A DNA stretch of 41,765 nt. It comes from Spirirestis rafaelensis WJT71-NPBG6 (lineage in GTDB: Bacteria > Cyanobacteriota > Cyanobacteriia > Cyanobacteriales > Nostocaceae). The position numbers and the translations under genes were made by a program. Positions 3,831 through 41,765 of the stretch are shown here, piece by piece (position 1 is the stretch's first letter; every line of letters begins with the position of its first letter). Location of the stretch: the NCBI GenBank assembly GCA_019359015.1, contig JAHHID010000070.1:1-41765 (forward strand), given 5' to 3'. The notes beneath the pieces were generated by a model, which searched no databases, had not been told where the DNA came from, and saw only the letters and a list, made by a program, of their open reading frames with translations.

Positions 3831-4598
3831 ATGAGAGAAAAAATTTTAGAAACACTCATCACTGCGTTAGAACCAAAAGATTTTGTATTAGCTTTTTGGC
3901 AAGGAGGTTCAGCAGCGCATGGGTATACAGATGAATGGTCTGATTTAGATATTGAAGTAATTGTTAAAGATGATGAGGTTCAACAGACTTTTGATGCTGT
4001 AGAAGAAGCTTTACAAACAATTTCAGAAATTAGTTTGAAGTATAGAGTTCCCGAACCTACATGGCACGGTCACTCACAAACATTTTACCAGTTAGCAGAA
4101 GCAAATCCATTTTTGGTGATTGATTTTGCAGTTATGAAGCAAAGTAGCCGCAACCATTTTTTAGAAGTCGAACGACATGGAAACGCGGTTATTGCATTTG
4201 ATAAGGCTAATCTAGTTGTACCGAAAAATGTGAATCAATCCGAGCATTTTTCCCAAATGAAAGAAAGATTTACACATCAAAAAAAGCTCTTCAACTTTTT
4301 GCAAGTATTCGTCAAAAAAGAAATAAATCGCGGACATTTAGCGCAAGCGATCGCCAACTATCAATCATATACCCTGCGAAATTTAGTTGAACTTTTGGGA
4401 ATGCTATATCGTCCCTACCGATACGATTTTACAATCAAGTATTTTAATCGAGATTTTCCACCTGAAGTTGTAGCGCGTGTAGAACCACTTTTTTGTATAA
4501 CGGATTTGGCTGATTTGGCAAAGAAACAGCAACTTGCAGAGCAAATGTTCGCAGAAACCTTATCGCGTGTAGAAGAAGCGCTTGAAAAATATAAGTAG
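3831..4598 (+). CDS. Nucleotidyltransferase-fold protein (aminoglycoside adenylyltransferase-like)
   Basis: The 255-residue protein carries the nucleotidyltransferase signature: GGSAAHGYTDEWSDLD (residues 25-40), with Asp38 and Asp40 as the paired metal ligands and a third acidic residue in VIDFA (Asp98). This arrangement is typical of the polymerase-beta fold used by streptomycin/aminoglycoside adenylyltransferases and by many uncharacterised bacterial relatives. The C-terminal half is helical. The family transfers NMP from NTP to a small molecule or protein; the acceptor cannot be deduced. The length fits single-domain members. The gene is monocistronic, starts at the first ATG and has no strong ribosome binding site. 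Drug resistance should not be assumed. Confidence 0.7.
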   Translation: MREKILETLITALEPKDFVLAFWQGGSAAHGYTDEWSDLDIEVIVKDDEVQQTFDAVEEALQTISEISLKYRVPEPTWHGHSQTFYQLAEANPFLVIDFAVMKQSSRNHFLEVERHGNAVIAFDKANLVVPKNVNQSEHFSQMKERFTHQKKLFNFLQVFVKKEINRGHLAQAIANYQSYTLRNLVELLGMLYRPYRYDFTIKYFNRDFPPEVVARVEPLFCITDLADLAKKQQLAEQMFAETLSRVEEALEKYK

Positions 4599-4701
4599 CC
4601 TTCATGAACTGTGACCCCATTTTGAAGATAGGTCAAGATGATACAAACAAATCTTTTCTACTTCAGTTAAGCTGACAACAGCAGTTTTAATTCCCAAAAC
4701 A

Positions 4702-5487
4702 ATGACGGCAAATAGTCCTACAATTCTCGCTTTAGACTTTGATGGTGTAATTTGCGACGGACTAATTGAATATTTTCAGGTAGCATGGCGTGCTTATTGT
4801 CAAGTATGGTCGCCAATTAACCAAACACCATCAGATGATTTAGCTTCTAGATTTTATCGGCTGAGACCTGTAATTGAAACAGGTTGGGAAATGCCCGTCT
4901 TAATTAAAGCTTTGGTAGCGGGAATTGATGATGAAAAGATTCTTCAGGAATGGGCAAGTATCGCTCAACAAATTTTGTTAGAAGACAAGCTACTGGCTAA
5001 AGAAATTGCCACAAAACTAGATAATCTCCGGGATGAATGGATTGCCACAGATTTAGATGGTTGGTTGAGTCTCCATCGATTTTATCCGGGTGTAGTAGAA
5101 AAAATTAAAGTAACTCTTGCTAGTAAAATCAAGCTGTATATCGTCACTACCAAAGAAGGACGTTTTGTAGAGCAGTTGTTGCAACAACAAGGAGTTACCT
5201 TAGAAAGAGATGCAATTTTTGGTAAAGAAGTCAAGCGTCCTAAATACGAAATTCTGCGAGAATTAATTCAGGCAGCACAGGAAAAAGCAGTTAGTTTATG
5301 GTTTGTAGAAGACAGAATCAAAACGTTACAGTTAGTCATACAGCAAACGGACTTGGAAAATGTGAAACTCTTTCTGGCAGACTGGGGTTATAATACTTAC
5401 CCAGAAAGAAACGCGGCTGAAAACGATTCGCGAATTCAGCTAATATCGCTTTCTCAGTTTGCTCAAGATTTTTCTGCTTGGTGTTAA
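4702..5487 (+). CDS. HAD-superfamily hydrolase
   Basis: The 261-residue protein shows all four HAD motifs: LDFDGVICDG near residues 11-20 (nucleophile Asp12, acid/base Asp14), VTTK around 149-152 (motif II Thr), a lysine in GKEVKRPKYEIL (motif III) and FVEDR (motif IV acid). A long helical cap lies between motifs I and II. Such proteins are phosphatases of the beta-phosphoglucomutase/phosphoglycolate phosphatase type, with the substrate set by the cap. This appears to be the cyanobacterial form often annotated only as HAD hydrolase. It follows the nucleotidyltransferase gene at 103 bp and ends at a hairpin, so it is probably transcribed alone. Confidence 0.75.
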   Translation: MTANSPTILALDFDGVICDGLIEYFQVAWRAYCQVWSPINQTPSDDLASRFYRLRPVIETGWEMPVLIKALVAGIDDEKILQEWASIAQQILLEDKLLAKEIATKLDNLRDEWIATDLDGWLSLHRFYPGVVEKIKVTLASKIKLYIVTTKEGRFVEQLLQQQGVTLERDAIFGKEVKRPKYEILRELIQAAQEKAVSLWFVEDRIKTLQLVIQQTDLENVKLFLADWGYNTYPERNAAENDSRIQLISLSQFAQDFSAWC

Positions 5488-5518
5488 TCTCTTGATACCC
5501 TGACCCTAGAAGGGTTGG

Positions 5519-8523: not shown

Positions 8524-10002
8524 TTAGGTTCGTGGACCTACCGTTGACTTCTTCAATCCGTTAGTGAAAATATCCTCCGCAATCTTAATGCCAAGCGGGA
8601 CTCCCCCAATATTTTTTGAGAGATTGGGTTTGCCATTATTTTTGACTCTAAAAGCATCAAAGACCCAATGGACACCGAGGAGAACGCGACTAAACCCGTT
8701 TTCGAGAATCATCTGCCACAACCCATCATCAAAATCGCGGCGATGCAGTGGTCGCACTGTGCCTCTGTTATCTTGATTGCTGCCATTCAACTCTTCAGAG
8801 ACGAAATCCAGTCCATCGAATAAATTATCTGGTTTTCTATCTCCAATTTCCACGCCGTAGAAAAGCCGTGTTATATGCAAAGCAGCGGCACCGAACGTCG
8901 CATGTCCTGACGGGTATGCCGGAAAGTTTGGCGTAAAATTCTTCAATGGAATTGTGTTTGTCGTTAAATTTCGATTGACTGAGTTTGTTCTTGGTGCACC
9001 TAAGGGCAACCAAAATGGGTCGGAATCCTTTGAGATATTATTGTTGGCATCTGTCGCTGCCGGACCTACTGATTCATCATGTTCACGAATGCCGAGCACA
9101 GGTCGCCAGAAATCGTGAAAGTATTTCTGGTCCCATGCTAGAATGCCGGCATCACCCATAGCTGCGTTCACTAGAGCGAATAAACGAGCATTTTGGGCTT
9201 CCGTGTTGCCTCTGGCGATCGCCACAGTGCGAACGATTTGGTTATACAAACGCGGTGGTGTTCCTAATCCAATCGCTCCATCATACGCCCAATAAATACC
9301 GACTAAGGTTTCCTCCGGAGTTCGGATGTCATCTTCAAAATCTTCATCCAGTGTTCCCATCAGCTCGGGTGCAATGCCTTTTACGCGCACCTGTCTCAAT
9401 GCTTTAAGATATTCCAAATTGTCAAATGGTGGTGCATCAAGTTCGTGTCGAGCTGTAATCGCAAAGCCTTTTGACTGCGCTCCATAAAATGGCGCATCAA
9501 AACCTTGCCCTGGATTATCAGGATCAACTCGATGTCTACCACGTTCTGTAGAAAACTCGTAGCCAGCATCACTGTTATCTGGGTCATTCTGTCTATCGGC
9601 TAGAATCGCTTGAGCTACTGTCACCCCAAAATCATGTCCAGGGTTAGCCACATCACCGTGTTCTGCCAACTTTGCATCAAAAAAACCTGTTTGCTTTGTA
9701 TACAAGGCTATCAGTGTTGTGTAAGCAGCCGCTGCTACTGCTGCGGTTGGTGATGCGCCATTTGGAGCTGATGGTAGTCCAGGCAGATAAGGCGGTAAAT
9801 TAGCCGGGTCATTAACTACACCAGCATATGCATCGTACATAGCCAAGTGAACAATTGCCAACGCACGTGAACTGAGCGTTGGTCCGGGTTGTTCCGGCTT
9901 TTTATTGCCATTCATGTCTTCAATCATCGCCTCTGGTTTTGTGAAGCTGATACGATTAGCTTCAAGCGCGACTTCGTTCCAGATAAGAATAGAATCTGTC
10001 AT
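8524..10002 (-). CDS. Vanadium-dependent haloperoxidase (PAP2 fold)
   Basis: The protein is about 492 residues from the ATG at 10002, preceded by AAAAAGGA. An ATG at 10023 would add seven residues and lacks a ribosome binding site. Counting from that longer start, the complete vanadate-binding set is present: Lys300 and Arg307 in KYFHDFWRPV, Ser372-Gly-His374 in FPAYPSGHATFG, and Arg446 plus His452 in SRVLLGVHW. The N-terminal half is the all-helical region typical of bacterial and cyanobacterial members. The family uses H2O2 to oxidise chloride, bromide or iodide, giving hypohalous acid or halogenated organics. No signal peptide is evident. Halide preference cannot be read from sequence. The gene stands alone between repeats, on the opposite strand to its neighbours. 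Confidence 0.88.
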   Translation of the reverse strand: MTDSILIWNEVALEANRISFTKPEAMIEDMNGNKKPEQPGPTLSSRALAIVHLAMYDAYAGVVNDPANLPPYLPGLPSAPNGASPTAAVAAAAYTTLIALYTKQTGFFDAKLAEHGDVANPGHDFGVTVAQAILADRQNDPDNSDAGYEFSTERGRHRVDPDNPGQGFDAPFYGAQSKGFAITARHELDAPPFDNLEYLKALRQVRVKGIAPELMGTLDEDFEDDIRTPEETLVGIYWAYDGAIGLGTPPRLYNQIVRTVAIARGNTEAQNARLFALVNAAMGDAGILAWDQKYFHDFWRPVLGIREHDESVGPAATDANNNISKDSDPFWLPLGAPRTNSVNRNLTTNTIPLKNFTPNFPAYPSGHATFGAAALHITRLFYGVEIGDRKPDNLFDGLDFVSEELNGSNQDNRGTVRPLHRRDFDDGLWQMILENGFSRVLLGVHWVFDAFRVKNNGKPNLSKNIGGVPLGIKIAEDIFTNGLKKSTVGPRT

Positions 10003-10236
10003 GGTTGCATTTTCCTTTTTCATTAAGAGCGCATAATGCTTGTATTGACAAAATGCACATTTTGTATTTATGCGCTGTTAATTATTCCTCAAATCTCCGT
10101 TTGTGGATTAGGCAAGATGTCAGATATTCGTAATATTTCTTTACATAATTGAGGTCTACTTTTCAAGCTAGAGCGATCGCATTAATTTTGCCCAATTGGA
10201 ACACTCTAAAAGCAAGTTTGCTAAGTTCCTATATTA

Positions 10237-10467
10237 AATTCGGGCAGTCGTTGATTGAATTCGGGCAGCCGTTGATTGAATTCGGACAGTCGTTGATTGA
10301 ATTCGGGCAGTCGTTGATTGAATTCGGGCAGTCGTTGATTGAATTCGGGCAGTCGTTGATTGAATTCGGGCAGCCGTTGATTGAATTCGGGCAGTCGTTG
10401 ATTGAATTCGGGCAGCCGTTGATTGAATTCGGGCAGTCGTTGATTGAATTCGGGCAGTCGTTGATTA
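10237..10467. repeat. 21-bp tandem array, 11 units
   Basis: Eleven consecutive 21-bp units starting AATTCGGGCAG, then T/CCGTTGATTG, run from 10237 to 10467. They differ only at one C/T position and a few single changes. A further partial unit (TTGAATTCGGGCA) lies at 10591, on the far side of a MITE. The unit is a multiple of three, so the plus strand has an open frame encoding a seven-residue repeat (SLIEFGQ), and the minus strand is open too. I regard this as a by-product of the array, since there is no ribosome binding site or recognisable flanking domain. The rest of the 10003-10775 gap has no other gene. Confidence 0.85.
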
Positions 10468-10590
10468 GATATCTTGCAAAAGTCCCTAACACCCCACCCC
10501 TTAATCCCCTCCCCTTAGCAAGGGGAGGGGAGACAAAGCGTAGTTTTGGCGGGGTGGGGTTCAAATTTTGTGATTTATGCAAGAGGTCTA
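10466..10590 (-). mobile_element. MITE copy A (TAGAC..CTTGCA ends), inside the 21-bp array
   Basis: A noncoding 125-bp element begins TAGATATCTTGCAAAAGTCC and ends GATTTATGCAAGAGGTCTA. It has imperfect terminal inverted repeats and a C/G-rich core with a CCCCTCCCC...GGGGAGGGG hairpin. It is the reverse orientation of the copy at 14749-14871. Array sequence resumes directly on its right side, showing that it inserted into the array. Confidence 0.7.
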
Positions 10591-10775
10591 TTGAATTCGG
10601 GCAATCCCCCAAGAATTTACTTAAAGCCATTCAAGATATTCGTGATAAATAAATCAATTTCTACTGAATAATGCGGGTGTCAAGTAACCCTAATTCTGTC
10701 TATCCTAGTGCTGTACAGTTCAGGGTATAAGTCAGTTTTTATCCTGGCGCATTATTAATAACAGGAAAGTGATTT

Positions 10776-11138
10776 ATGTCACGTCCAAAACGCGGGTCTA
10801 AAGTAATTGATAGAGCACAGCGTCGGATTGCGGCTTTGAAATCGATCAGTGCCACCTTAGACTTAGGCAATGGGGTAACAATTGACTCTTTTGCAACTGC
10901 CATCAAAACAACGCAAGACAAGTTAGAAGTATATAACTCAAGCCTCTCCACCGTGGATCTGACTCAGGGAGCCTTAGAACTTGCCGAAAAGTCGCTGATG
11001 GAACTAACAGAACATATGTTACTCAGTGTAGCTGCAAAGTATGGCAAGAATAGCGATGAGTACAAAATGGCAGGAGGCGTTCGTCGAAGCGATCGCAAGC
11101 GTCCGGTGCGTCAGCCTAAACAAGGGGCTGTTGCTTGA
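10776..11138 (+). CDS. Conserved hypothetical protein, basic C-terminus
   Basis: The 120-residue protein is preceded by AGGAAAG 6 nt before the ATG, a good ribosome binding site. The N-terminus is basic (MSRPKRGSKVIDRAQRR). The middle (residues 20-75) is a helical segment resembling a short coiled coil, and the C-terminus has a conserved-looking KYGKNSDEYKMAGGVRRS segment followed by a KRPVR tail. Similar small proteins with a YGxxSxEYxMAGG motif are frequent in cyanobacteria, but I know of no function. No partner gene is adjacent. The base composition and ribosome site support a real gene; the function is unassigned. Confidence 0.65.
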   Translation: MSRPKRGSKVIDRAQRRIAALKSISATLDLGNGVTIDSFATAIKTTQDKLEVYNSSLSTVDLTQGALELAEKSLMELTEHMLLSVAAKYGKNSDEYKMAGGVRRSDRKRPVRQPKQGAVA

Positions 11139-11149
11139 TAAATCTGGGT

Positions 11150-11535
11150 TTTACCCCACCCTAACCCTCCCCTTGGAAAGGGGAGGGAACTGGATTTCGT
11201 GTTTCCCCTCTTGGGGTTTTTCTGCAATATTCGCACAAGGAAACTTGGAAAGGGGAGGGAACTGGATTTCCTGTTTCCCCCCTTTCTAAGGGGGGATTAA
11301 GGGGGGTAATTTGACTATAGTCTCTTAAAGCCCACCTTTATAAGGGGGGTTGGGGGGGTAACGTCAGATTTTAATGTGCTATACGACATTTTTCAAACAT
11401 CCTCTTAGTGACATTTGGTTTAGTTCTTTTATTCTTGGGTAACAGGGGTTCAATAATCTAATACAAGGCTTGATCCTCCCTAACCCTCCTTAAAAAGGAG
11501 GGAACTAAGCCCCCCTTAAAAAGGGGGGTTGGGGG
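11150..11535. repeat. C/G-run palindromic spacer repeats
   Basis: The spacer is made of fragments rich in CCCTCCCC and GGGGAGGG. A 37-bp direct repeat (CTTGGAAAGGGGAGGGAACT and onward) occurs at 11172 and again at 11244 with one mismatch. Further hairpins such as CTCCTTAAAAAGGAG and CCCCTTAAAAAGGGG occur near 11484-11530. These are noncoding dispersed repeats; plus-strand open frames through them are not credible genes. Confidence 0.55.
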
Positions 11536-11547
11536 GATCTTCCGAGG

Positions 11548-11622
11548 TCAAACATCATTAACTGAACTGTATTGTTCAACAATCTCCCACTCTTTATCTG
11601 TCAAGCTGCTTGAATATGGCAT
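11548..11622 (-). pseudogene. IS5-type transposase N-terminal scrap
   Basis: On the minus strand an ATG at 11622 opens a 24-residue frame starting MPYSSSLTDKEWEIVEQ and ending at a stop. The (S)SSLTDKEWEII start is typical of IS5-family (DDE) transposases in cyanobacteria. Only this N-terminus survives; nothing downstream matches the rest. It marks an old insertion next to the TPR gene. Confidence 0.55.
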
Positions 11623-11731
11623 TTTTGCCAAATTATACTCTTTTACCAAAATCCCAAATGCATCTATAAACAGCCTCTTACTCAGCCAAGAAGTTATAAT
11701 ATCAATCAAACTGATTGGACTCTGGGTAATA

Positions 11732-12193
11732 ATGCCAAATGCTAGCGTAGCAAGTTTACTAGAGCAAGGACACAACCAACTCGATTGCAGAGAGTACCAA
11801 GCAGCTTTAGAGATTTTTCAGCAAGCTGCTGTACTGGAACCGCAAAACCCCCAAGTAAGTTATGGGTTGGGTCTAACTTGTTATCGTCTAGAACAATACC
11901 ACGAGTCCATTGAATACCTAAACCAAGCTTTGAGAATTAACCCAAACTACATTTTGGCGCTAGTATGGCGAGGATTGGCTTACCAAGAAATTGACCAAGC
12001 GCAGCAAGCACAAGCAGATTTGGAGCAAGCGATCGCACTTACCCCCCAAGATTCAGAAGACTGGCAAGGTAGAGGAATTGCATTAAATGAATTACAACGC
12101 TATGAGGAAGCGATCGCATCTTACAACCAGTGCGATCGCATTGCTTTTGTAGGGTGCGTTGCGCCTTTGCGACAACGCACCCTTGTATTTTAG
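11732..12193 (+). CDS. TPR-repeat protein with a replaced C-terminus
   Basis: The 153-residue protein contains three full tetratricopeptide repeats and the start of a fourth: about 5-38 (QLDCREYQAALEIFQQAAVL), 39-72, 73-106 and 107-135 (LQRYEEAIASYNQ). TPRs are helix-pair scaffolds for protein contacts. The fourth repeat stops at SYNQ, exactly where a TGCGATCGC begins. The remaining residues (CDRIAFVGCVAPLRQRTLVF) are the translation of a palindromic repeat, so the original gene was probably longer. Start ATG at 11732; no strong ribosome binding site. It may be a truncated but stable TPR protein or a pseudogene. Confidence 0.6.
   Translation: MPNASVASLLEQGHNQLDCREYQAALEIFQQAAVLEPQNPQVSYGLGLTCYRLEQYHESIEYLNQALRINPNYILALVWRGLAYQEIDQAQQAQADLEQAIALTPQDSEDWQGRGIALNELQRYEEAIASYNQCDRIAFVGCVAPLRQRTLVF
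12151..12183. repeat. AGGGTGCGTTG palindrome
   Basis: An 11-bp perfect inverted repeat AGGGTGCGTTG / CAACGCACCCT with an 11-base loop. It is a common cyanobacterial repeat type, here translated as the C-terminus of the TPR protein. Confidence 0.65.
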
Positions 12194-12513
12194 AAGAGTG
12201 GCAGCTATTACTGAAGTGTTGCCAGCAAATGCCCATTGCACTCACCCAACACGTAGATAAGAAACTATGCTGCGAGTCTACCATTGACGATAAATCCCCA
12301 TTTACAAGCAGAAACGCCATCTTAAAAATCATGCCGATTGCCGATTGCTCTTACTCTCCAATCTGAATAAAAGTAAAATTTAAGACAAATTATATTGAAA
12401 CAGTAAGAATTTACGTCTTTTAGCTAGACTTAGTTGCAATAAACACGCTTGGGCAATCATTTAGGTAAAGATTAGGATACAAGGCAAGCATTACTCAGGT
12501 ATAAGGATTTCTG
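12194..12513. other. Upstream region of the Roco gene
   Basis: Apart from a weak open frame at 12130-12366 that I do not believe, nothing coding is visible. The last part is AT-rich and should hold the promoter of the original Roco gene. A ribosome binding site (ATAAGGATTT) lies just before the ATG at 12514. Confidence 0.3.
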
Positions 12514-12590
12514 ATGACGAATGAAGAACTGGTGGAAATCCTCTAATATCACTTCCCCCAGAAATCCGCAAGAAAGGCTTTAGAGCAATC
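12514..12590 (+). pseudogene. Remnant 5' end of the Roco gene (leucine-rich repeats deleted)
   Basis: After a good ribosome binding site, an ATG at 12514 encodes MTNEELVEIL and then stops. That is a typical start of cyanobacterial leucine-rich-repeat proteins. From about 12534 a different frame, the one used by the GTPase, reads GNPLISLPPEIRKKGFRAIL. This is the typical last leucine-rich repeat and linker before the Roc domain. The sequence between, the repeat domain itself, is missing. The two parts share the bases GGAAATC at the junction. Confidence 0.7.
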
Positions 12591-14285
12591 TTGAACTTTT
12601 ACAAACAACAAATAGAACAAGAAACCGATTACCTCTACGAAGCTAAATTACTCATTGTGGGAGAAGGTGGTGCAGGTAAAACTACCTTAGCAAAAAAAAT
12701 TCAAAACTCAGATTATCAGCTAGAGCAAGATGAAATCTCTACTGAAGGCATTGATATTATCCGATGGAGCTTCCCATTAGAAAATGACAGAGGGTTTCAG
12801 GTTAACATTTGGGACTTTGGTGGTCAGGAGATTTACCATACCACCCACCAGTTTTTCCTGACCAAACGCTCTTTTTATATCCTGGTTGCTGATAGCCGAA
12901 AAGAAGACACAGATTTTTATTATTGGCTGAATGTAGTAGAACTGTTAAGCGAAAACAGTCCCTTACTTATTATTAAAAATGAAAAGCAGGAGCGCAAACG
13001 CGAAATAAACGAGCGACAATTACGAGGTGAATTCATTAATCTTAAAGAAACACTCGCTACAAACCTTGCTACTAATCGCGGTTTGTCAGAAATTCTGAAT
13101 AAAATTAAACATTATATTAGCAATCTACCCCATGTTGGAACAGAACTGCCCAAAAGCTGGATTAAAGTACGGGAAGCTCTAGAACGTGACTCCCGCGACT
13201 ATATTAGCTTGCAAGAATATCTAACTATCTGTCAGGAAAATGGGTTTACTACACAAAAGGACAAACTCCAACTTAGTGGCTATCTGCATGATTTAGGTGT
13301 ATGCCTTCATTTCCAAGAAGATGACCTTTTAATAAAAACCGTAATTCTCAAGCCAACTTGGGGTACAGATGCGGTTTATAAAGTATTAGATAACTCACAA
13401 GTAATTCAAAATTTGGGTAAATTTGACCGTCATGATTTAGCAAACATCTGGAATGAAAACAAATACCTCAACATGCGGGCAGAACTGTTGCGATTAATGA
13501 TAAATTTTAAATTGTGTTATGAAATTCCCAGTTGCCCTGGTACTTACATTGCTCCACAACTTCTTAACCCTAACCAACCAGAGTATGAGTGGCAAGAAAA
13601 TGATAACTTGCTTTTGCGCTACGAATATGAATTCATGCCCAAAGGTATCCTGACTCGTTTCATCGTCGAGATGCACTCATGGATTGAAGGACAAACTGTT
13701 TGGAGAAGCGGTGTTGTCTTGAATAAAGATCAAGCGCAGGCAGAGGTGATTGAGTATTATCGCTATCACAAAGGAGAGATTCGGATTCGTGTTTCCGGTA
13801 AGCGTAAGCGAGATTTGTTGGTTACGGTGAGGCACGAACTCGACAAAATTCACTCTTCTTACGAACGTTTGAAGTATAAAATACTAGTTCCCTGCAATTG
13901 CCAAGCCTGCAAAGGTAATCAAACACCCCACTTCTACCCATTACAGGTGCTATATAAATTTATAGATGACAAACAAACTCAGATTCAGTGTCAAAATAGT
14001 TACCAGATGGTAAACGTTCGAGGCTTGATTGACGATGTAGTTTTTAAACAACCTAGCTTAACAGACTCACAACGACAACATTTAAAACAGCGACAAGACA
14101 CGCTTCAGGCAGAGTGGCAGCTAAGGAGCGAAAAGTTGAATAAACTGCGTTTGGATTATGCAATTGAGGTAGGCACTGCCATTAAGTTTCAGTTACAGCA
14201 ACAAATTCAATTTGAGGAAACTCAACTGTCACACTTAGAGAGAGACTTGGACGAAATTGAGCAAAATCTAAGAGGCAGTAACTGA
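12591..14285 (+). CDS. Roc-COR (Roco) GTPase lacking its leucine-rich repeats
   Basis: Of the 564 residues, the Roc GTPase domain is at about 18-170: P-loop GEGGAGKTT (24-32) and switch II WDFGGQE (74-80). The usual NKxD guanine motif appears as KNEKQ and is weak. The COR dimerisation domain follows (LKPTWGTDAVYKVLDN and onward, about 230-400). After it come a Cys motif CNCQAC (435-440) that could bind metal, and a C-terminal coiled coil (about 490-560). Roco proteins are G proteins activated by dimerisation, related to human LRRK2. The only in-frame start is TTG at 12591, without a ribosome binding site, because the native ATG is now out of frame. It may therefore be poorly expressed or dead. 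A small gene follows at 13 bp. Confidence 0.8.
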   Translation: MNFYKQQIEQETDYLYEAKLLIVGEGGAGKTTLAKKIQNSDYQLEQDEISTEGIDIIRWSFPLENDRGFQVNIWDFGGQEIYHTTHQFFLTKRSFYILVADSRKEDTDFYYWLNVVELLSENSPLLIIKNEKQERKREINERQLRGEFINLKETLATNLATNRGLSEILNKIKHYISNLPHVGTELPKSWIKVREALERDSRDYISLQEYLTICQENGFTTQKDKLQLSGYLHDLGVCLHFQEDDLLIKTVILKPTWGTDAVYKVLDNSQVIQNLGKFDRHDLANIWNENKYLNMRAELLRLMINFKLCYEIPSCPGTYIAPQLLNPNQPEYEWQENDNLLLRYEYEFMPKGILTRFIVEMHSWIEGQTVWRSGVVLNKDQAQAEVIEYYRYHKGEIRIRVSGKRKRDLLVTVRHELDKIHSSYERLKYKILVPCNCQACKGNQTPHFYPLQVLYKFIDDKQTQIQCQNSYQMVNVRGLIDDVVFKQPSLTDSQRQHLKQRQDTLQAEWQLRSEKLNKLRLDYAIEVGTAIKFQLQQQIQFEETQLSHLERDLDEIEQNLRGSN

Positions 14286-38343: not shown

Positions 38344-41300
38344 CTAAATGTCCTGAGACGGTTTACCCAATCTTTTCAACGCCTCAGCGGCACTACCACG
38401 CACATCAGAATCATCATCTTCCAGACACGCCCTAAGCGCTTGCATCACCGTCTCTGAGGTGTTACCTAAGTTGCCCAACGCCTCAGCGGTAATATTACGC
38501 ACATCAGAATAATCATCTTTCAGACACGCCACAAGCGCTTGCAGTACCGACTCTGAAATGTTACCTAACTTGACCAACGCCCAGGCGGCACTACCATGCA
38601 AATTATAATCATCATGTTCCAGACACGCCACAAGCGCTTGCAGTACCGACTCTGAGGTGTTACCTAACTTGACCAGCACCCAGGCGGCACTACGACGCAC
38701 ATCAGAATCACCATCTTTCAGACACCCCATAAGCGCTTGCAGTACCGACTCTGAGGTGTTACCTAACTTGACCAACCCCCAGGCGGCATTACCACGCACA
38801 TAATAATCATCATCTTTCAGACACGCCATAAGCGCTTGCAGTACCGACTCTGAGGTGTTACCTAACTTGACCAACGCCCAGGCGGCACTACGACGCACAT
38901 CAGAATCATCATCTTTGAGACACGCCATAAGCGCTTGCAGTACCGACTCTGAGGTGTTACCTAAGTTGACCAATGCCTCAGCGGCACGAAGACGCACACC
39001 AGAATCATCATCTTTGAGACACCCCACAAGCGCTTGCAGTACCGACTCTGAGGTGTTACCTAAGTTGCCCAACGCCTCAGCGGCATTACGACGCACATAT
39101 TTCTCATCATCTTCCAGACACGCCACAAGCGCTTGCAGTACCGACTCTGAGGTGTTACCTAAGTTGCCCAACGCCACAGCGGCACAATAACGCACCTCAG
39201 AATTATCATCTTTCAGACACGCCAGAAGCGCTTGCAGTACCGACTCTGAGGTGTTACCTAAGTTGCCCAACGCCTCAGCGCCATCAGAACGCACATCAGA
39301 ATTATCATCTTTCAGACACGCCACAAGCGCTTGCAGTACCGACTCTGAGGTGTTACCTAAGTTGCCCAACGCCACAGCGGCACTACCACGCACATAATTC
39401 TCATCATCTTTCAGACACGCCACAAGCCCTTGCAGTACCGGCTCTGAGGTGTTACCTAACTTGCCCAACGCCACAGCGGCACTACGACGCACACTATAAT
39501 TATCATCTTTCAGACACGCCACAAGCCCTTGCAGTACCGACTCTGAGGTGTTGCCTAACTTGCCCAACGCCTCGGCGGCACTAACACGCACATCAGAATC
39601 ATCTTTCAGACACGCCACAAGCGCTTGCAGTACCGACTCTGAGGTGTTACCTAAGTTGCCCAATGCCTCGGCGGCACTACGACGCACACCAGAATCATCA
39701 TCTTTCAGACACGCCACAAGCGCTTGCAGTACCGACTCTGAGGTGTTGCCTAACTTGCCCAACGCCTCGGCGGCACTAACACGCACATCAGAATCATCTT
39801 TCAGACACGCCACAAGCGCTTGCAGTACCGACTCTGAGGTGTTACCTAAGTTGCCCAATGCCTCGGCGGCACTACGACGCACACCAGAATCATCATCTTT
39901 CAGACACGCCACAAGCGCTTGCAGTACCAACTCTGAGGTGTTGCCTAACTTGCCCAACGCCTCGGCGGCACTACGACGCACACCAGAATCATCATCTTTC
40001 AGACACGCCACAAGCGCTTGCAGTACCAACTCTGAGGTGTTGCCTAACTTGCCCAACGCCTCGGCGGCACTAACACGCACATCAGAATCATCTTTCAGAC
40101 ACGCCAGAAGCGCTTGCAGTACCGACTCTGAGGTGTTACCTAACTTGCCCAATGCCTCAGCGGCACTACGACGCACACCAGAATCATCATTTTTCAGGGC
40201 TATGAGAAGACCATCAACCGCAGATTTAGCTGTTGCTGCCATTTTACTTAATTCTTTAACCGCACGTCGCCTATCTTCCACCTCTGGAACAAACAGGTCA
40301 TTGGTTAGGCGTCGAATACGTTGCTTCTGTTGTTCTTGCTTTAACGCTTCCAAATCTAGCCCTGCGAGTTTGCCTAGTTCCTCAGCCACGAAACTGGGTA
40401 CTTTCGCTTCTGTCCCTTTTGCCAGACAGCAGTCTCTCACTGCTAGCAGAAAACCTTTAATTTCTTCCCGTTTGTTTGGATTTGAGTCTACTTTTGCGAA
40501 AAAGTCGTGCCAGCTTGCTTCTTTTTCATTGTAATTTTCTACCAGGTATAGTCCTGCTAAATATTCAGCCAAAGGGTCTAGAGCAAACCTAATTGTGCCT
40601 GATTTTCCTGACTTAATTAAATGGAGTTTTTTCTCAAAATGCTCAAGGGAGTTATCAGCTTTTTTCTCCCCCAAGGCAACAATCACAGACTCACGCTCTA
40701 CATAACTTGGCTTATAGTGCTGCTCAAGACATTTCCAAGCAATAAGCTTGGCATCGAATTCAAGTGTGTGATATTCCTCATTCGTCAGTCTTTCCACTTC
40801 CCGATTAAGCTTTTTTAAGTGGTCAATTATCAAGTCAGGGATATTATCAAGGGAACGCTCCCTGAGTGATGAATTCTCCTTAGCATTAATCATTCGCTCT
40901 GCATACAGTTTAGCCAGCAAAACTGTAATTGTTTTCTTATCACCCACTATCCCTGCAAGTTGGGCACATTCTTGCAAAAACTCTTGTTGATTCTCCTGAA
41001 AAAGTTCCCACTTTTGGCACTGTTTCAAATACTGCTCGATAAAATATGCTAACTTCCCGCCATCGAACCGGAGAGTCGTAATCTTGTTGTCAATTCCGTT
41101 AAATTTTTCTTCAATTCGTGAGGTGATTACCAAAGCATTCGCTGGAAACTCTGGAACTTCCGGATTAATCTTTTCACGGGTTTGTTGACTCATTTCCGAG
41201 AAATGATCGACAATCAAGAGAATCCGGCGTTTTCGTAAAAGTTGTTCTACTAGCAATTCATCAACAATCTTTTGTTCCCCGTCGCTCAGATCCTGGATTT

Positions 41301-41568
41301 GTCCTACAATGTCTTCCATCAAAGGCTTCATGCCTTCCCCTGACTGCGATTTCAGTTCTTGCTCAATTAAAACTGGTAACATTAAGTGTTGAGTCAGGCG
41401 TTTGGACTTGTCCTTTATCATTGCCCATTTCGCAATCTGACAAGCAATGGTTGTTTTTCCTGAACCTCCCTCTCCCCAAATCAAAAGCCGCACGCGCTTT
41501 TCTTTTTCAAAAGTTTTCCTCAAGTCTTCCGTTGTCAGTTCTTCAATCTCCTGCTTATTTAACTCCAC
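38344..41568 (-). CDS. NACHT-type NTPase with 19 HEAT repeats, 5' end interrupted by a group II intron
   Basis: The coding part in the window is at least 1074 residues. Near the start is the Walker A GEGGSGKTT (about 32-40). Walker B follows as ILLIVDHF, with downstream NACHT-like LVITSR and helical winged regions. From about residue 445 come 19 HEAT repeats of 32-33 residues (NTSESVLQALVACLKDD and onward), almost identical to each other, then KPSQDI. NACHT proteins with repeat sensors are signal-transducing NTPases; several bacterial ones are anti-phage. GTG at 41568 is only the first start codon in frame: the frame is open, with sensible sequence (DTFDKKFQENETVGERKDY), right up to the intron edge at 41639. 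The N-terminal effector therefore lies beyond the intron, outside the window. Confidence 0.85.
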   Translation of the reverse strand: MELNKQEIEELTTEDLRKTFEKEKRVRLLIWGEGGSGKTTIACQIAKWAMIKDKSKRLTQHLMLPVLIEQELKSQSGEGMKPLMEDIVGQIQDLSDGEQKIVDELLVEQLLRKRRILLIVDHFSEMSQQTREKINPEVPEFPANALVITSRIEEKFNGIDNKITTLRFDGGKLAYFIEQYLKQCQKWELFQENQQEFLQECAQLAGIVGDKKTITVLLAKLYAERMINAKENSSLRERSLDNIPDLIIDHLKKLNREVERLTNEEYHTLEFDAKLIAWKCLEQHYKPSYVERESVIVALGEKKADNSLEHFEKKLHLIKSGKSGTIRFALDPLAEYLAGLYLVENYNEKEASWHDFFAKVDSNPNKREEIKGFLLAVRDCCLAKGTEAKVPSFVAEELGKLAGLDLEALKQEQQKQRIRRLTNDLFVPEVEDRRRAVKELSKMAATAKSAVDGLLIALKNDDSGVRRSAAEALGKLGNTSESVLQALLACLKDDSDVRVSAAEALGKLGNTSELVLQALVACLKDDDSGVRRSAAEALGKLGNTSELVLQALVACLKDDDSGVRRSAAEALGNLGNTSESVLQALVACLKDDSDVRVSAAEALGKLGNTSESVLQALVACLKDDDSGVRRSAAEALGNLGNTSESVLQALVACLKDDSDVRVSAAEALGKLGNTSESVLQGLVACLKDDNYSVRRSAAVALGKLGNTSEPVLQGLVACLKDDENYVRGSAAVALGNLGNTSESVLQALVACLKDDNSDVRSDGAEALGNLGNTSESVLQALLACLKDDNSEVRYCAAVALGNLGNTSESVLQALVACLEDDEKYVRRNAAEALGNLGNTSESVLQALVGCLKDDDSGVRLRAAEALVNLGNTSESVLQALMACLKDDDSDVRRSAAWALVKLGNTSESVLQALMACLKDDDYYVRGNAAWGLVKLGNTSESVLQALMGCLKDGDSDVRRSAAWVLVKLGNTSESVLQALVACLEHDDYNLHGSAAWALVKLGNISESVLQALVACLKDDYSDVRNITAEALGNLGNTSETVMQALRACLEDDDSDVRGSAAEALKRLGKPSQDI
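38365..40230 (-). repeat. Coding tandem array of 96/99-bp HEAT units
   Basis: Nineteen units of 99 bp (or 96 bp when one Asp codon is missing) encode the HEAT repeats. Blocks 39541-39735 and 39736-39930 look identical base for base until the last few positions, i.e. a 195-bp two-unit higher-order repeat. Units near 38.4-39.2 kb have diverged most. The complementary strand shows long open frames that are shadows of this repetition. Confidence 0.85.
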
Positions 41569-41639
41569 TGGCAGAGAAACGTAATCTTTGCGCTCACCAA
41601 CGGTTTCATTCTCCTGGAATTTTTTATCGAAAGTATCAA

Positions 41640-41765
41640 GTTAGAGTCGATGGTGGGTATTATCCCACGCACCTCTCTGTTAGAACCGTGCGTGCCACTT
41701 TCATGGCACACGGCTCCCGATATTCTTAGGGTTATACCCTTTGCTTCATGTGAATATAATCGTGA
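41640..41765 (-). mobile_element. Group II intron, 3' end (continues beyond the window)
   Basis: Read on the minus strand, a canonical 34-nt domain V hairpin (41716 to 41683) begins GAGCCGTGTG and ends CACGGTTC. A short linker and a domain VI stem follow (AGAGGTGCGTGGG ... CCCACCATCGACTCT), with an A seven bases from the end (CGACTCTAAC) as branch point. The intron should end with AC at 41641-41640. The exon then continues in the NACHT frame. The reverse transcriptase/maturase ORF would be upstream on the minus strand, outside the window. Confidence 0.9.
41683..41716 (-). ncRNA. Group II intron domain V
   Basis: This is a 34-nt hairpin with the near-invariant GAGCCGT... stem start, a GAAA tetraloop (CCATGAAAGTGG) and GCACGGTTC closing arm. 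Domain V is the catalytic metal-binding heart of the ribozyme. Confidence 0.88.

Follow-up and report, generated by a model that had tools for sequence, protein, structure and literature searches.

In the cyanobacterium Trichodesmium erythraeum, 17 group II introns are documented to splice in vivo (PMC4649490, by the excerpted text of that paper), and a survey of intron numbers and protein types, known here in extract, describes an increase of CL-type group II introns in Cyanobacteriota (PMC8919778). The alternative splicing of a Clostridium tetani group II intron, located in the gene of a surface-layer protein, shows that such introns can affect the product (PMC3919590, as excerpted). Among the papers listed for group II introns together with NACHT or anti-phage genes, no title points to an intron in a NACHT gene; in the available part of PMC7159879, group II intron and NACHT are both mentioned, unrelated to each other. 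Here, the end of a group II intron was found to run directly into a NACHT-HEAT gene at the edge of a 41,765-nt window, which is the entire contig C70 of the 7.07 Mb genome of Spirirestis rafaelensis WJT71-NPBG6 (143 contigs). That an intron has inserted into this gene is close to certain. The fuller reading, in which a mobile intron entered recently and in a target-directed manner and splices out of the pre-mRNA, is considered likely from the sequence features described below.

The last 126 nt of the window (41640..41765, minus strand) form the 3' end of the intron, and the contig ends inside it. A cmscan search of the whole window placed a full-length RF00029 match (1-77/77) at 41640-41718 on the minus strand, with a score of 61.8 bits against a gathering score of 40 and an E-value of 6.5e-10. 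The 79 nt comprising domains V and VI have a predicted folding energy of -39.7 kcal/mol (z -6.24), and none of 200 dinucleotide shuffles of this stretch folded equally well. Based on the RF00029 alignment and the fold, the 34-nt domain V was assigned to 41683..41716 (-) and domain VI to 41643..41678 (-). The latter contains an unpaired GA, the A of which (41647) lies 8 nt from the intron 3' end and is the candidate branch point, and this catalytic-type domain V/VI fold with a bulged candidate branch A is as expected of a group II intron. Group II introns begin with GUGYG and end with AY; both ends of the present intron fit these motifs, with GTGCG at C26:123 and a terminal ...AAC at 41640. Positions 41732..41764 (-) hold the last codons of the intron-encoded protein, HDYIHMKQRV plus a stop, recognized from the translation and from relatives, and this sequence resembles the C-terminus CHDYIHMSK... 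of the RT frames in full-length related introns. Of the presumed RT/maturase, for which the first-pass annotation had proposed a search upstream, the final ten codons (41764-41735) are present, and the rest is absent from the assembly.

Downstream of the intron, the 3' exon of the NACHT-HEAT gene extends over 38344..41639 (-) and consists of two bases of a split Ile codon, 1097 codons and a stop; TT at 41639 completes the split codon, and from 41637 the frame DTFDKKFQ... continues without interruption until the stop at 38346-38344. Inside the intron, this frame is closed by a TAA at 41643-41641, so that the frame opens only after the intron and the GTG at 41566..41568 (-), listed mechanically as an ORF start, is an internal codon of the real gene. 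The missing part was located by means of an uninterrupted homologue in a congener (G003), which is 86% identical over a 446-residue query. When the N-terminus of the G003 protein was compared with the own genome, it matched one strong place, C26:125-595 (-), with query residues 1-155 at 95% identity and an E-value of 1.1e-95, the second-best match having an E-value of 0.22. From this match, the 5' exon, which lies outside the window, spans C26:124-595 (-). Its coding sequence ends ...GTTGAGAAACACA and is directly adjoined by the GTGCG of the intron 5' end, GTGCGATTCG..., starting at C26:123. The real gene start is thus 181 codons further upstream than GTG 41568, on contig C26. The intron splits the Ile codon as A|TT, and the spliced frame comprises 157+1+1097 codons. 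The joined exon ends of C26 and C70 align with G003 without gaps and with zero mismatches at the junction. The homologues in G009 and G054 also align across the junction, with more differences, and the gaps in G054 lie away from it. Similarity to G003 extends beyond the gene end (G003 4522-5501 to C70 38820-37841, 85%). The link between C26 and C70 is drawn from gene continuity, not from reads.

The first-pass annotation had described domain V, domain VI and an AC end at 41640 as followed by a NACHT exon from 41639, had placed the intron in the gene's own strand and had regarded the annotated start as an artefact. The RF00029 match of 61.8 bits with the open frame behind it bears out the first of these claims; both elements are on the minus strand, in sense orientation, and the TAA at 41643-41641 together with a gene start on C26 disposes of the annotated one. 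The upstream exon and the GTGCG 5' end that it suggested looking for were both located on C26; the NACHT frame continues in that exon, and no intact gene start lies directly upstream of 41568. An assembly artefact, in which the intron end was misjoined to the NACHT frame, would suit a window that ends at a repeat, with a shared end of 127 nt as expected of a k-mer assembly break. However, the C70 exon starts exactly where the congener gene continues, the C26 exon stops at the complementary point, and two independent contig ends would need to be wrong in a matching way, which makes this explanation scarcely credible. A chimeric contig was likewise ruled out by the exon join, which matches the congener at the base level. 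At the other end of the window, positions 6-126 have a match (86% over 122 bases) far 5' of the G003 gene, and this end may therefore be a repeat too.

Eleven loci were fetched from the 18 strong homologue matches outside the own genome, and in all 11 the insertion site is uninterrupted and is preceded by a recognizable [V/I]LDxWV motif. A conserved intron of NACHT genes was excluded on this basis, and the best reading is that the insertion into the NACHT gene is recent. A clean exon join and an empty site in relatives were found for the NACHT gene and, likewise, for the copy on contig C32.

The own-genome search revealed that the same 127 nt that terminate the window also terminate contigs C32 and C76. 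The last 126 intron nt are identical among C70, C32 and C76, and the first 123 intron nt are identical between C26 and C32; near-identical 3' and 5' ends occur on these contigs only, all other own-genome matches being 72-85% alike or short. On C32 (73,340 bases), the two intron ends face each other around the contig, which carries genes for a ParA-type ATPase (PF01656, with part of the frame tested), ParB (PF02195) and Mob_Pre (PF01076), and C32 is a probable circular plasmid opened at its intron. The gene split there is a small conserved plasmid gene, unrelated to the NACHT gene, with the intron in the same phase. Its 5' part matches 45 plasmid records (18 at 80-90% identity and 27 below 60%) and its 3' part matches 17. 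Both parts are present in 17 records: in 16 of these the spacing between the halves is exactly 3 nt, as long as the split codon, and in the remaining one, NZ_CP050444, the gene spans the record start. This spacing favours a single intron copy at the C32 ends, and two different copies are disfavoured. Since the 3' end on C76 has no identical 5' partner in the own genome, there may be a truncated copy, or the partner may be missing from the assembly; C10 matches the intron 5' end at 75% but has no RF00029 match. The occurrence of identical copies at several sites points to an intron that was recently active.

A similar upstream sequence is present at the two insertions. When the 19 nt 5' of the intron in the NACHT gene (GCTTGGGTTGAGAAACACA) are compared with those in the C32 gene (GCATGGGTGGATAAGCACA), 15 positions are identical; the stretch was picked after viewing the alignment. 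This similarity fits recognition through IBS1/IBS2, and a common target of this type would explain why the two insertions have the phase and the peptide AWV[E/D]KH in common. Among the relatives, the picture is mixed, with all partners and candidates counted with no chance control. In G249, the last 12 exon bases of the two copies are almost identical, and each copy has an exact 7-nt IBS1 partner at intron position 323; G297 has a single exact 6-nt partner at intron position 336. In G184, G210 and G353, three or four scattered EBS1 candidates each were obtained with G-U pairs allowed, and their placement is not secure. Like 5' flanks are also common to some of the six copies in Chlorogloea.

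Matches to the 126-nt intron end (E <= 1e-12) were found in 96 of 388 genomes of the order, with at most two candidates scored per genome, and in 26 plasmid records, several of which annotate the gene overlapping the match as a reverse transcriptase. No match to the intron 3' end was found in the phage collection, and a 20-nt exact intron pattern gave no loci in viral contigs and seven in genome contigs (six in Chlorogloea sp. CCALA 695 and one in an Aliterella MAG). None of these provides a full-length identical intron, as the sequence stops 63-141 nt into the intron at all seven loci. Six full-length relatives, drawn from five genomes and delimited by BLAST matches, measure 2198-2214 nt. They and locus L131 contain long frames ending, for example, ...HESCHDYIHMSKR, which we take to be RT-HNH proteins. 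An RT family search of the own genome gave eight matches; none of the RT-bearing stretches compared, from C131, C77, C115, C47 and C4, matches the intron 5' end, and we conclude that the assembly lacks the intron body.

The own genome contains 18 RF00029 matches in many contexts, 17 of them above the cut-off, with 150 of 393 candidates scored. Starting at the 3' boundary, the best of the three frames stays open for 80 codons or more in 10 of these 18 cases. This count considers frame length alone, with no chance control, and takes in C1, whose frame has an EF-P-like start shortly after its beginning, and C124, in which a frame other than the longest is gene-like. Insertion inside genes is therefore probably not special to the NACHT gene. 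These counts also bear on the idea, raised by the first-pass annotation, that splicing of the intron regulates production of the NACHT protein. Its one point of support is the position of the intron inside the gene; against it, the intron is absent from all 11 homologous loci read, the same intron interrupts the unrelated gene of C32, and RF00029 matches occur in many contexts in the genome, so that regulation of this kind is very improbable. Under the preferred reading, any effect on the NACHT protein would be incidental and not an evolved regulation.

The host gene encodes a NACHT NTPase, as indicated by the P-loop GEGGSGKT at 41452..41475 (-), by a PF22731 NCH4 match of 80 bits, found together with HEAT matches in the window part of the protein, and by the intact congener protein, which matches NACHT PF05729 at 29.4 bits (cut-off 26.7) and contains HEAT repeats. 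For the window protein itself, PF05729 was absent from the best 25 of 48 matching families. The HEAT array, delimited by repeat analysis and Pfam HEAT families, occupies 38377..40197 (-), with a period of 99 bp, 18.5 copies and 89% matches. HEAT motifs were counted 18 times in the window protein and four times in that of the congener, for which a looser pattern was used; together with the near-identical repeats, this suggests that the array has recently changed in size. The 5' exon matches no Pfam family above the cut-off, and hydrophobic stretches in its N-terminal part, judged by eye, indicate that the protein is probably membrane-anchored. PADLOC families were compared without curated cut-offs: none matched the 5' exon, four matched the congener protein, and seven matched the 3' exon at E <= 0.01. 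Six of these seven have their best stretch in the HEAT array, the seventh, IetA (E 1.5e-4), matches over the P-loop region, and no NACHT system is among the names. Hence a defence role is proposed by analogy with bacterial NACHT proteins, and the label "immune-type" follows from the NACHT-HEAT architecture. A more far-reaching scenario, in which a plasmid-borne intron with a specificity fitting the AWV[E/D]KH codons lands in a NACHT-type conflict gene of the host, and the resulting dependence on splicing dampens a system possibly acting against mobile elements, is again regarded as most unlikely.

Based on these observations, a possible course of events was proposed. An intron of probably about 2.2 kb with its own RT-type protein may have recognized the target via EBS/IBS pairing and, through retrohoming or ectopic retrotransposition, inserted in sense orientation into codon 158 in phase 1. 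Splicing from the pre-mRNA would then restore the normal protein of 1255 residues, with an mRNA junction reading ...GAGAAACACATTGATACTTTC... (ACACA-TTGAT), and the insertion could be tolerated because the intron splices out. The main rival is that the intron splices poorly, in which case the NACHT gene would be effectively knocked out and its exons would be a young pseudogene. Neither exon contains a stop codon, and comparison with G003 shows one in-frame gap in each and dN/dS values of 0.29 for the 5' exon (155 aligned codons) and 0.45 for the NACHT part (479 aligned codons). These values do not prove present function, as most of the divergence may predate the insertion, and intact frames would be expected of so recent an insertion regardless; furthermore, the C76 copy, as one of three 3' ends, lacks an identical 5' partner, and not all copies need be complete. 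On the other hand, both ends are canonical and the 3' domains have a stable predicted fold, recent activity of the intron is implied by its identical copies, and the sense orientation is accompanied by in-frame exon joins in both host genes. A knockout is thus rated as a minority possibility, and a splicing intron remains the preferred reading.

Further intron boundaries were observed in the same genome. On C115 (L036), at about 8902-12756 (-), two introns are nested, the inner one splitting the RT frame of the outer intron at YGFRPG|RSC. The inner intron has its 5' end, GTGCGATTCG, at 12243 and its 3' end at 10192, and its own RT frame looks broken. The 3' end of the outer intron (8902) is followed by a possibly TnpB-like frame with no Pfam match; as a Cas12f1-like TNB domain lies in a separate frame further downstream, the TnpB-like gene looks broken. 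For such nesting, the excerpted text of PMC4649490 (2015) describes the case reported there as the sole twintron in a bacterial protein-coding gene. Another group II intron, at C4:64152-64230 (-), has an RT frame of 611 aa and is followed by a 3' exon starting KTTTAVNLSATF...; seen from this exon, the intron seems to interrupt the Walker A motif of a ParA-type ATPase (PF13614, PF01656). The first 127 bases of C101 and C124 constitute another shared intron end. The two frames that follow it differ but look related (QIAREAEQGRRYADKLVKVW... and, read by eye, EVIRDAELGRRFADKLVKIY...), and they hint at a second intron that prefers a site within a single gene family.

At base resolution, the locus thus shows one mobile intron that resides on a plasmid-like contig and, within the same genome, in a second gene, with the phase shared and the target sequences similar. 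It also corrects the model of the NACHT gene, which would lose 181 codons if started at GTG 41568. If splicing is conditional, the locus could serve to examine, in a natural setting, whether a potentially harmful NTPase can be tuned by an intron. Compared with the excerpts of the reports on known systems, it resembles the introns of T. erythraeum in that a cyanobacterial group II intron lies inside a protein-coding gene (PMC4649490), and differs from them in the host gene and in that the intron is known from its DNA ends alone. Like the CL-type introns (PMC8919778), it is a multi-copy cyanobacterial intron, and it may itself belong to the CL type; in contrast to that survey, a single insertion in a single gene is considered here. 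The C. tetani case (PMC3919590) likewise concerns a bacterial group II intron within a protein-coding gene. As for the host protein, a central NACHT NTPase is shared with bNACHT25 as described in the excerpt of PMC12169576, whereas a HEAT array and a hydrophobic N-terminal region set the window gene apart. Since introns in cyanobacterial protein-coding genes are known (PMC4649490), the insertion is a new example of a known event and not a new system.
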